A DNA stretch of 64,000 nt, from positions 1 to 64,000 of the forward strand of contig BDTX01000019.1 in NCBI GenBank assembly GCA_002897615.1, written 5' to 3'. Each line of letters begins with the position of its first letter. Position 1 is the first letter of the stretch. The translations under genes were made by a program, and so were the position numbers. Below the pieces are notes generated by a model. That model worked only from the letters and a program-made list of their open reading frames with translations, was not told the origin of the DNA and ran no database searches. Source of the stretch: a bacterium BMS3Bbin14. GTDB lineage: Bacteria; Desulfobacterota; Desulfobulbia; Desulfobulbales; Desulfobulbaceae. Shown piece by piece: positions 9,566 through 48,079 of this stretch.

Positions 9566-10363
9566 TCATCCGTTGAACGAACTGACCCGGCGGCACGTAT
9601 CCACCCGGCAGGCGAGAACGGCACGCCCCCGCAGATAATAAAACAGCTGCGCCGCCCTTCTATAACTGAACAGGCGGGTGTATCGGGCCGACAGTTTAAA
9701 TATCTCCCACAGCTGTTCACGGGTCTGACTGGAACTTTTGGCTGCGGGATAATACCGCATCGACGACAAAACGGCCGGTATCAGTCCGGCAGCGTACTTA
9801 TCCGCAAAGCGCAGCCAGAGATCGTAATCCATGGCCAGGTGCAGACGAGGATCAAGCATCCCGCATTCATCCAGCAGACCCTTGCGGAAAAAACAGCTGG
9901 GCTGACCGATGTTGCAGTAGTTGAGCAGTTTGCTTTTTTTATACTTTCGGTGCATGGTCAGTTTATAAACACCGCCCTCCCGGTTCACGAGCTTCCAGCC
10001 GCCGTAGGCCCATCGGCACTGCGGATGACTCTGGAAATAGTCGATCACATTCCGCAGGGCGCCCGGCTCGAGGAAATCGTCGGAATTCAGAAAGCCGAGG
10101 ACTTCCCCCCGGGCCAGCCGCCAGCCCTTGTTGATCGCATCCGCCTGCCCCCGGTCCTCTTCCCGGATAGAGACAAAGTGGACCCCCTGTTGCAGAAATT
10201 TCGGGGCATAGCGGTCGATAATCCCGGCGGTCGAATCCGTTGAGCAGCCGTCAACAACGATATACTCCAGCAGGCCGCCGACATCCTGCGCCAATACACT
10301 GTCAAGGGTCTGGGCAATCGTTTCGGCCTGGTTATATGTCGGCGTGATCAGACTTATATACAT
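9566..10363 (-). CDS. GT2 glycosyltransferase
   Basis: 265 residues with the GT-A fold motifs ISLITPTYNQAET, YIVVDGCSTDST, EDRGQADAINKGW and FLNSDDFL (DxD-type metal site). WcaA-like enzymes of this group add hexoses or deoxyhexoses to a growing surface glycan. The ATG at 10363 is only 3 bp from a family B MITE, so the native leader and ribosome site have been replaced by repeat sequence. The stop TGA lies within the target duplication of the family A MITE at 9480. This gene is thus bracketed by two different mobile repeats. Confidence 0.88.
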   Translation of the reverse strand: MYISLITPTYNQAETIAQTLDSVLAQDVGGLLEYIVVDGCSTDSTAGIIDRYAPKFLQQGVHFVSIREEDRGQADAINKGWRLARGEVLGFLNSDDFLEPGALRNVIDYFQSHPQCRWAYGGWKLVNREGGVYKLTMHRKYKKSKLLNYCNIGQPSCFFRKGLLDECGMLDPRLHLAMDYDLWLRFADKYAAGLIPAVLSSMRYYPAAKSSSQTREQLWEIFKLSARYTRLFSYRRAAQLFYYLRGRAVLACRVDTCRRVSSFNG

Positions 10364-10366
10364 AAA

Positions 10367-10609
10367 CCTGAATCCGTGACGGCTTGAGATGACACTTTAT
10401 GCAATATTTGGAATTTATTATATTGTTTCAGAATAAACGCATTTTCCGGCCTGCACTGCGCCGCCCTGCGGGGCGCCCGATAACGGCGCATCTGCTGCGT
10501 TGACAACTCCTTGATATCACACCAGGATAATCAACATCGTTGCCGCCTCGAAGGTCTCGCAGGCTCGCTATCTGCAGCTGCACCGTTCTCAGACGCTCAC
10601 TGATCCAGG
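10367..10609. mobile_element. Family B MITE, 5-bp TSD ATAAA
   Basis: A 243-bp element with ends CCTGAATCCGTGA (left) and TCACTGATCCAGG (right, reverse complement CCTGGATCAGTGA), flanked by ATAAA at 10362-10366 and 10610-10614. The left duplication overlaps the start codon of the GT2 gene that begins at 10363. It contains GGGCGCCC and CGATGTTGATTATCCTGG (in reverse complement), shared with the other family B copies. There is no open frame of note. Confidence 0.85.
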
Positions 10610-45999: not shown

Positions 46000-46174
46000 A
46001 ACTTTTTCTCTCCGTCAGCGGCCCGGCAACCGGTACTGATTTCACTCCTGCCGGGTGACAACCGGCCACCGGGCCCGGTAACCTGCCCGGCACGATAACT
46101 GTCGACTTTATAGATTTATTATCCATTATAATCCTTTCTTTGACATGCTACTGATCGATACGTTATAGTAATTG
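46000..46174. other. Upstream region of the antiporter gene
   Basis: Non-coding. It contains the antiporter ribosome site and GC-rich inverted stretches such as CCGGCCACCGGGCCCGG, then an AT-rich part. It presumably holds the minus-strand promoter, but no convincing -35/-10 pair was identified. Confidence 0.4.
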
Positions 46175-46325
46175 GTAACCGTCCAGCTCTACTCCACCTT
46201 CGGGCGATCAGCCAAGTTTGTTGGGTTTCGCTCCGCTTTGTGGTATTTCTGACTTGCCGGCAAGAATAAGGATTAAGCGAAACCCAATGTCTTGGCGATA
46301 ACCCGCTCTACGCCAACCTACGGCA
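46175..46325. mobile_element. Degenerate family A-like hairpin element
   Basis: It starts GTAACCGTCCAGCTCTACTCC and shares CTTCGGGCGATCAG with the copy at 62091-62246. The middle forms a large stem: GCCAAG plus GTTGGGTTTCGCT (46211-46232) against AGCGAAACCCAA plus CTTGGC (46276-46296). The far end (CGCCAACCTACGG) does not match a family A terminus and I see no target duplication, so this copy is old or chimeric. Confidence 0.55.
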
Positions 46326-46451
46326 AAACTCCGGATAGCGAAATAGCCGGTTATTTTGCAAACCAAAATTTACAAGGTCTGTCTTCCGAGCTTGGAATGG
46401 AAACACTTTACATTTTTTGCCCCGTGAACCATTTTTACCTTATAATACCAT
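46326..46451. other. Non-coding stretch before a family B MITE
   Basis: No gene or RNA is recognised. Its last five bases (ACCAT, 46447-46451) are the left copy of the duplication around the family B element. Before the insertion this stretch was the leader of plsC. Confidence 0.45.
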
Positions 46452-46695
46452 CCTGGATCCGTGAGCGTTCGAGAACGGTACAGATGCAGATAGCGAGCCT
46501 GCGAGACCTTCGAGGCGGCAACGATGTTGATTATCCTGGTGTGATATCAACTTTGTTGCCAACGCAGCAGATGCGCCGTTATCGAGCGCCCCGCAGGGCG
46601 GCGCGGTGAAGAGTATAAAATGCATTTATTTGTCAATAATGCAATAAATTCCACGTATTGCCTATAGTATAATCTCAAGCCGTCACGGATTCAGG
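46452..46695. mobile_element. Family B MITE, 5-bp TSD ACCAT at the plsC start
   Basis: A 244-bp element, CCTGGATCCGTGA ... TCACGGATTCAGG, flanked by ACCAT at 46447-46451 and 46696-46700. The right duplication provides the AT of the plsC start codon (ATG 46699-46701), and the element's end, CAGG, sits just before it. This is the longest family B copy and has the same orientation as the one at 31656. Confidence 0.93.
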
Positions 46696-46701
46696 ACCAT
46701 G
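46690..46701 (+). promoter_or_regulatory. plsC translation start made of MITE end plus duplicated target
   Basis: TTCAGG is the MITE terminus, ACCAT the target duplication, and ATG begins at 46699. AGG with a 3-nt gap is at best a weak Shine-Dalgarno. The native leader was displaced 249 bp upstream, so expression of plsC must now start inside or read through the element, or use this junction. Confidence 0.6.
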
Positions 46702-47412
46702 TCGCCACTGCAATATATCCGGGCCTCTCTGGCCCTCATTGTCGCCCCGCCGCTGACGATCGTGGTCAGCGTCCTGGCCCTGCTCGACCTGACTTTTTTT
46801 CGCAAGTCCCCGGCCAAGGCCCTGGTTTTCCCGCGAATGTGGGCCAGGATCACCTGCCGGATCGCCGGGGTCCGCGTTCGAATTGCAGGACTTGAGAATA
46901 TCGAGCCAAACCAGACCTACATCTTTGCCGCCAATCACGTCAGCCAGTTTGACATCTTTACTCTTCAGGGGTATTTTCCCCATGATTTCCGCTGGATCGC
47001 CAAAAAGGAACTCTTTCGCATTCCCATCTTCGGCACTGCCATGCGGCGGACAGGTTTTATCGCCATGGACCGCACCCACGGCCGCGCGGCCTTAAAAAGC
47101 CTGAACAAGGCGGCCGAACAGATCGCCGGGGGCACCTCGGTCATCATCTTTCCCGAGGGCACGCGCAGCCGGGACGGCCGGCTGCATCCCTTTAAAACCG
47201 GGGCGATCATGCTGGCCATCAAGGCCGGGGTGCCGGTCGTGCCCGTCGGCATTAACGGCACCTACGAAATCCTGCCCAAGGGCAAACTGCTTGCCGACTC
47301 CGGCGAGGTCGTCATCCGGGTCGGCACCCCCATTCCCACCGCCGACTTCACCTCTCACGACAAGCAGAAGCTGGCAGGGCAACTGCACGACCGGGTCAGG
47401 GAACTACTGTAA
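46699..47412 (+). CDS. plsC: 1-acyl-sn-glycerol-3-phosphate acyltransferase
   Basis: 237 residues with an N-terminal hydrophobic segment (LALIVAPPLTIVVSVLALL) and the LPLAT motifs: NHVSQFD (the H-x4-D catalytic motif), FIAMDR, FPEGTRSRDGRL (motif III) and VPVVPVGINGTYE (motif IV). It transfers an acyl chain to lysophosphatidic acid to make phosphatidic acid at the inner membrane. The length is typical. The start codon lies in a family B target duplication. The stop codon TAA is the first bases (GTAA) of a family A element, so the gene is bounded exactly by two repeat families. Confidence 0.93.
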   Translation: MSPLQYIRASLALIVAPPLTIVVSVLALLDLTFFRKSPAKALVFPRMWARITCRIAGVRVRIAGLENIEPNQTYIFAANHVSQFDIFTLQGYFPHDFRWIAKKELFRIPIFGTAMRRTGFIAMDRTHGRAALKSLNKAAEQIAGGTSVIIFPEGTRSRDGRLHPFKTGAIMLAIKAGVPVVPVGINGTYEILPKGKLLADSGEVVIRVGTPIPTADFTSHDKQKLAGQLHDRVRELL

Positions 47413-47545
47413 GTCGGCCCAGGCACCCCATCTTCACGCAATTGCTTCCGCCCGCATAAAAAAACTATAACGAGCGAAAACAATTACGCAAATATGGGGC
47501 ACCTGGACCAACTTACAGGCTTGAACAACAATGACCCATAGTTAC
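47409..47545. mobile_element. Family A-like element at the plsC stop codon
   Basis: It starts GTAAGTCGGCCCAGGC and ends CCCATAGTTAC (GTAAC in reverse complement). The hairpin arms are CCCAGGCACCCCATCTTC and ATATGGGGCACCTGGACC. The TAA stop of plsC (47410-47412) is part of the left terminus. A clean 8-bp duplication is not visible, probably because the region was later amplified in tandem. Confidence 0.7.
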
Positions 47546-47939
47546 CCCCCCGGGAGGGAACACGAGCTGCTCGATCTGACCGGGAAATGCCTCTCCGGCA
47601 CCCCATCTTCACGCAATTGCTGCCGCCCGCATAAAAAAACTATAACGAGCGAAAACAATTACGCAAATATGGGGCACCTGGACCAACTTACAGGCTTGAA
47701 CAACAATGACCCATAGTTACCCCCCCGGGAGGGAACACGAGCTGCTCGATCTGACCGGGAAATGCCTCTCCGGCACCCCATCTTCACGCAATTGCTGCCG
47801 CCCGCATAAAAAAACTATAACGAGCGAAAACAATTACGCAAATATGGGGCACCTGGACCAACTTACAGGCTTGAACAACAATGACCCATAGTTACCCCCC
47901 CGGGAGGGAACACGAGCTGCTCGATCTGACCGGGAAATG
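47426..47939. repeat. Three tandem 175-bp units derived from the family A element
   Basis: CCCCATCTTCACGCAATTGC begins at 47426, 47601 and 47776, an exact 175-bp period. Unit 1 differs from unit 2 at least by CTTCCG versus CTGCCG; units 2 and 3 look identical. Each unit contains most of the hairpin plus the flank with CCCCCCGGGAGGGAACACG. The last unit ends at about 47939 without the final 11 bases. The short open frames inside have no plausible protein features. Confidence 0.92.
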
Positions 47940-48079
47940 AATTGTTTTGCAACTATTTGCCGAACATGGCATAGTGATCTGGATTATTTCCGGCTGAAAC
48001 AAATTCAGCGTATCAGGCGCAAGACGCCTGTAATCTAACAACAAAAAAATATCCAGACCATCAAACAGGAATTGATCCC
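47940..48079. other. Upstream region of bamA
   Basis: A non-coding, AT-rich leader with a small hairpin CAGGCGCAAGACGCCTG and, near the end, CAGGAA as the bamA ribosome site. No defined promoter was identified. Confidence 0.45.

Follow-up and report, generated by a model that had tools for sequence, protein, structure and literature searches.

Two non-autonomous transposons at the edges of a plsC gene that keeps its native start codon in a Desulfobulbaceae bacterium

Arrangement of the plsC locus

The plsC gene studied here is bordered at both edges by unrelated non-autonomous transposons, an IS1380-type element (MITE B, repeat family B) that abuts the start codon and a probably IS66-type element (MITE A, family A) that supplies the stop codon. 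We consider it the likeliest reading that the gene is still transcribed from its native upstream promoter, through the upstream MITE. The window, i.e. the whole 64,000-nt stretch that was analysed, is taken from contig BDTX01000019.1 of the assembly GCA_002897615.1 (bacterium BMS3Bbin14). The host is a sulfate-reducer-type bacterium. Coordinates of the features are collected in Table 1.

Table 1. Features of the plsC region, in window coordinates
Feature	Position	Strand	Basis
Predicted native plsC promoter, TTGACA-18-TATAGT	46140–46169	+	11/12 consensus positions
Third composite repeat inside the old plsC leader	46173–46384 (approximate ends)	.	Absent in sister
Left target duplication of MITE B, ACCAT	46447–46451	+	Exact 5 bp
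MITE B, 244-bp IS1380-type non-autonomous element	46452–46695	+	Terminal repeats, duplication, copies, fold, empty sister site
31-bp motif marking the 244-bp subfamily	46489–46519	+	Exact in 48/57 copies
Right target duplication of MITE B, ACCAT, supplying the AT of the plsC ATG	46696–46700	+	Exact 5 bp
plsC (1-acylglycerol-3-phosphate acyltransferase, 237 aa)	46699–47412	+	TIGR00530, conserved start, sister comparison
Left 8-bp target duplication of MITE A, GAACTACT	47401–47408	+	Alignment with other copies; sister GAACTGCT
MITE A, 155-bp element, GTAA end gives the plsC stop	47409–47563	+	Copy comparison; hairpin z -4.5
175-bp tandem triplication (most of MITE A and the old plsC 3′ end)	47422–47946	+	
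Right 8-bp target duplication of MITE A, GAGCTGCT	47564–47571	+	Fit to other copies

In the sister genome G001 (same genus, locus L065), which is about 93% identical at the nucleotide level over plsC and both of its neighbours, both insertion sites are empty, and the 5′ site reads ...CTGATAACACCATGTCGCC... with a single ACCAT. The framing of plsC by two repeats, as proposed in an earlier note on this DNA, is thereby borne out. Since the sister lacks both elements, the simplest account is that they inserted after the two species had split; the ATG is old, and the window protein is five residues shorter than it was. A public plsC sequence (JAADIK010000112.1) is 90% identical and is probably the same gene as that of the sister genome.

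The start codon of plsC

The product of plsC scores 129.4 bits against TIGR00530, for which the cut-off is 102.95. Its ATG (46699–46701) consists of the last two bases of the right ACCAT duplication together with the next G. The earlier note had the start arise from the family B duplication, which is right as to the bases used but not as to their origin: the sister has the identical ATG in a continuous CACCATG without any element, so that creation of the start codon by the duplication is ruled out. Judged by this comparison, the ATG is the native start and is older than the MITE B insertion. The orthologue alignment agrees: the sister plsC and most of 30 orthologues start at the residue that corresponds to this ATG.

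MITE B and its family

MITE B is bounded by 13-bp terminal repeats (CCTGGATCCGTGA / TCACGGATTCAGG). A long imperfect hairpin makes up its left part, the right part is AT-rich, and the predicted fold of the whole has an energy of -95.2 kcal/mol (z -5.3). The family comes in sizes of 219 and 244 bp, without transposase and at high copy number; across the 2.71 Mb of the genome, the terminal repeat CCTGRATCCGTGA turns up 232 times on each strand, compared with 0 hits for its reversed form, used as a control. About 40 alignable copies were scored, and the copy-based counts given here cover the copies listed and fetched from the genome itself, among about 230. An exact 5-bp duplication flanks 53 of 99 two-ended copies. 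The most conserved stretch of the element is the 31-bp motif GATAGCGAGCCTGCGAGACCTTCGAGGCGGC, which may be either constrained or recently homogenised; elsewhere the copies differ by up to about 10%, and conservation of the 244-bp element is lowest in its right arm.

The sequence CCTGAATCCGTGA is present at both ends of autonomous IS1380 elements in the relatives L128 and L129, the latter element being flanked by the 5-bp duplication TTTTG/TTTTG. In the genome under study, the only IS1380 transposase sequence found, a fragment encoding the N-terminus, lies at a contig edge (L063, positions 1–430), next to the terminal repeat CCTGGATCCGTGA, and the full element seems to have been lost there to assembly collapse. 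On the evidence of these ends and duplications, family B is an IS1380-type MITE. Shorter or diverged forms of it occur in other genera of the order.

A target logo was derived from sixty insertion sites with at least four of five matching duplication bases. It displays C before and G after the duplication and A/T at the first and last positions of the latter, i.e. a palindromic preference for C-W-NNN-W-G. This preference makes NNNAT followed by G a common target, with the result that an ATG falls in the duplication. Active targeting of start codons by family B was considered and ruled out, given that, of 59 oriented copies, 8 carry an ATG at the right end and 6 its mirror image, CAT, at the left end, the nearly equal frequencies that a palindromic target predicts. 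At plsC, the element hit such a W-NNN-W-G site (ACCAT, then G) containing the start codon, most simply after the split from the sister. Because the target contains the start codon, duplication of its 5 bp restored the ATG and left the frame untouched.

A second case of a start codon within the duplication is found in the window at a glycosyltransferase gene (9566–10363, minus strand), where the ATG comes from TTTAT followed by G; the family B copy there (10367–10609, 243 bp) has the same orientation relative to the gene as at plsC. A copy at a transaldolase gene (L029, ATAAT followed by G) was not counted, the ATG of its duplication lying upstream of what we take to be the native start (MSKLDQLK).

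MITE A and the 3′ end of plsC

MITE A begins with GTAAG, and the TAA at 47410–47412 terminates plsC; the assignment of the stop to the GTAA terminus of a downstream element, made in the earlier note, is thus correct, and the end given there (47545) lies within that element, about 18 bp short of its terminus at 47563. The window protein ends in VRELL*, compared with VRELLDPPGK* in the 242-aa sister protein, which amounts to the loss of five C-terminal residues. This tail differs in length and sequence among the 30 orthologues. The IS66-like MITE, which most simply landed at plsC after the sister split, cut the variable tail and gave the gene a new stop, and the tail may well be dispensable.

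The duplication of MITE A is degenerate at this locus (GAACTACT/GAGCTGCT, versus GAACTGCT in the sister), while exact 8-bp duplications flank about ten other family A copies. An IS66 element in the same genome (L125) has the ends GTAAGCGCCACGTAAA and the duplication AAATGTTA/AAATGTTA. Family A is probably IS66-type, with a terminal-repeat identity to that element limited to GTAAGC, about six bases, and may have been mobilised by IS66.

The native stop, a TGA at about 47938–47940, lies near the end of the tandem triplication, about 530 bp beyond the new one. Through the triplication, the 3′ sequence that plsC has lost is present three times between plsC and bamA. It also contains a short CCTCTCC junction.

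Promoter and leader of plsC

The best promoter match of the upstream region (Table 1) has a score of 15.5, which was reached by 0 of 100 shuffles, and in the sister a match with identical hexamers, spacing and score heads the list at -118 to -89 of plsC. These scores use E. coli sigma-70 hexamer frequencies, from which those of the Desulfobulbales-like host may differ. In the sister, only about 88 bp separate the -10 hexamer from the ATG. In the window, the old leader also contains the third composite repeat, of the type GTTTGTTGGGTTTCGC...GCGAAACCCAA, which has 22 other partial matches in the genome.

In MITE B, no sigma-70 match exceeds the shuffles (best 7.7, shuffle mean 7.8). The family B consensus likewise has no hexamer pair above shuffles, and a conserved outward -35/-10 pair was not found. 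A TATAAT in the right arm of the plsC copy (46668–46673) recurs in only 2 of 52 copies; it was ruled out as a family promoter and is a private change common to one other copy. Since the native promoter match persists upstream, MITE B is at chance level and the third repeat lies between them, the native leader was stretched and displaced (about 82 nt before, about 520 nt now) and not replaced by a new promoter. The views of the earlier note that the leader had been fully replaced, and by implication that the MITE carries a promoter and a translation start, are therefore not upheld. Most likely plsC is still transcribed from the native promoter, through the third repeat and MITE B, and no intrinsic terminator-like site was found between 46000 and 46760.

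Such read-through would have a cost. In the predicted plsC transcript the terminal repeats pair with each other into a stem that stops 3 nt short of the AUG. Opening the region from -18 to +15 is predicted to require 14.6 kcal/mol with MITE B (12.0 kcal/mol if transcription starts at 46453), compared with 4.6 kcal/mol without the MITE and 5.7 kcal/mol in the sister; with the MITE reversed, the value is 16.7 to 18.0 kcal/mol. No SD-like sequence is present in the native plsC leader of the sister either. The terminal-repeat stem should lower the translation of plsC unless it is processed or unfolded, and lower translation, or stem processing as proposed for Neisseria elements (PMC2229807), is what the folding model predicts. 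With so high a predicted opening cost, an essential-type gene would be poorly translated, which speaks against read-through, and mere tolerance of the MITE leaves another observation unexplained, namely the orientation of the 244-bp copies relative to gene starts.

Orientation of the 244-bp copies and other explanations

Among 42 intact 244-type copies, a gene start lies within 60 bp of the right end in 18 cases and of the left end in 3 (p 0.0015), a test that followed the inspection of several classes and distances and relied on gene calling by a simple ORF and hexamer method. The bias weakens to 22 versus 7 when truncated copies are included. For the 219-type copies the numbers are 8 (right) and 6 (left), and the two subfamilies are not clearly different in this respect. 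Many 244-type copies lie between co-directional genes, where upstream transcription can enter. From their N-termini, we take the genes behind right ends to include pyrG, accC, trpC and rpe. A directional leader effect of the 244-type right end is a lead, and this end may possibly be permissive or promoter-bearing.

What, then, is the chance that the right arm of MITE B serves as a mobile promoter and leader from which plsC is now expressed? Besides the orientation bias, the AT-rich right arm with its TATAAT in the plsC copy and the outward promoters of the IS1380 elements ISEcp1 and ISPme1 (PMC9330008) would fit such a role. However, hexamer pairs in the plsC copy and in the consensus stay at the level of shuffles, the TATAAT is hardly shared and sits in the least conserved arm, and the bias is post hoc, weaker with truncated copies and not clearly specific to one subfamily. 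We regard this explanation as unlikely, albeit the strongest of those competing with read-through from the native promoter. Slightly less probable still is a broader version, in which the 244-bp MITE is a directional leader, through a non-sigma-70 promoter or through a processed RNA that frees the start codon, and has captured many housekeeping genes of this lineage, including plsC, at their 5′ ends.

It is improbable that transcription starts at the left terminal repeat, from a promoter-like site that abuts MITE B (46417–46446). This site (TTGCCC-18-TATAAT, 10/12, score 13.3) ends one base before the duplication, but its TATAAT is not present in the sister (CTGATAAC), the site is absent from the top promoter matches of the sister, and transcripts made from it before the insertion would have begun at or inside the ATG.

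Finally, that plsC is decaying and unexpressed, with another acyltransferase taking over, is very hard to credit: its dN/dS against the sister (0.34) does exceed that of the start of the adjacent bamA (0.16), and a second PF01553 protein is encoded on contig C28, but the reading frame and the NHxxxxD and FPEGTRS motifs of plsC are intact, and the C28 protein, at 69 bits, falls short of the AGPAT cut-off (103) and adjoins a ketoacyl-synthase-like gene. A dN/dS of 0.34 indicates that plsC is under purifying selection. Among the PF01553 proteins of the 94% complete assembly, no other acyltransferase scores above the AGPAT cut-off; the second plsC that the earlier note proposed to look for was not found, and given this completeness one could be missing from the assembly. 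The weaker suggestion of the earlier note, that the MITE permits expression, is fair in view of the selection on plsC and the lack of such a second enzyme.

Comparison with known elements

The plsC case is of the same kind as those described for IS1380, Correia and Coxiella elements. Family B has the 5-bp duplication of the IS1380 family (ISEcp1, ISPme1) and its derived MITEs, as well as the 13-bp terminal repeat of L128/L129 and L063; it differs from ISEcp1 in having no transposase and no detectable outward promoter. The Correia elements of Neisseria (NEMIS, CREE) resemble family B as high-copy, gene-side MITEs that place hairpin RNA in transcripts; they can give rise to promoters and are bound by RNase III, and have been reported to alter the expression of neighbouring genes (PMC2229807, PMC2649163). 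Unlike family B, they have different terminal repeats and the target TA, and their promoter generation and RNase III cleavage have been tested.

In Coxiella burnetii, QMITE1 and QMITE2 extend into functional genes at the 3′ end and change their C-termini; among genes of known function, the authors reported no 5′ end affected (PMC5896051). The 3′ overlap is alike at plsC, where one MITE, in addition, lies directly at a start codon. For family A, GTAAGC ends and an 8-bp duplication are shared with the IS66 family, with only about six terminal bases in common. No paper on such elements in Desulfobulbaceae was found in the literature searched, which is weak evidence of novelty.

The locus is a clear-cut natural example, controlled by the empty sites of the sister genome, of an essential-type gene keeping its start and frame while both of its flanks are mobile DNA. 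That an IS1380 MITE of about 200 copies favours a W-G target, often with an ATG in it, accounts for how start codons can be hit often without harm to the protein. One orientation has perhaps been selected for supporting expression, which is directly testable.
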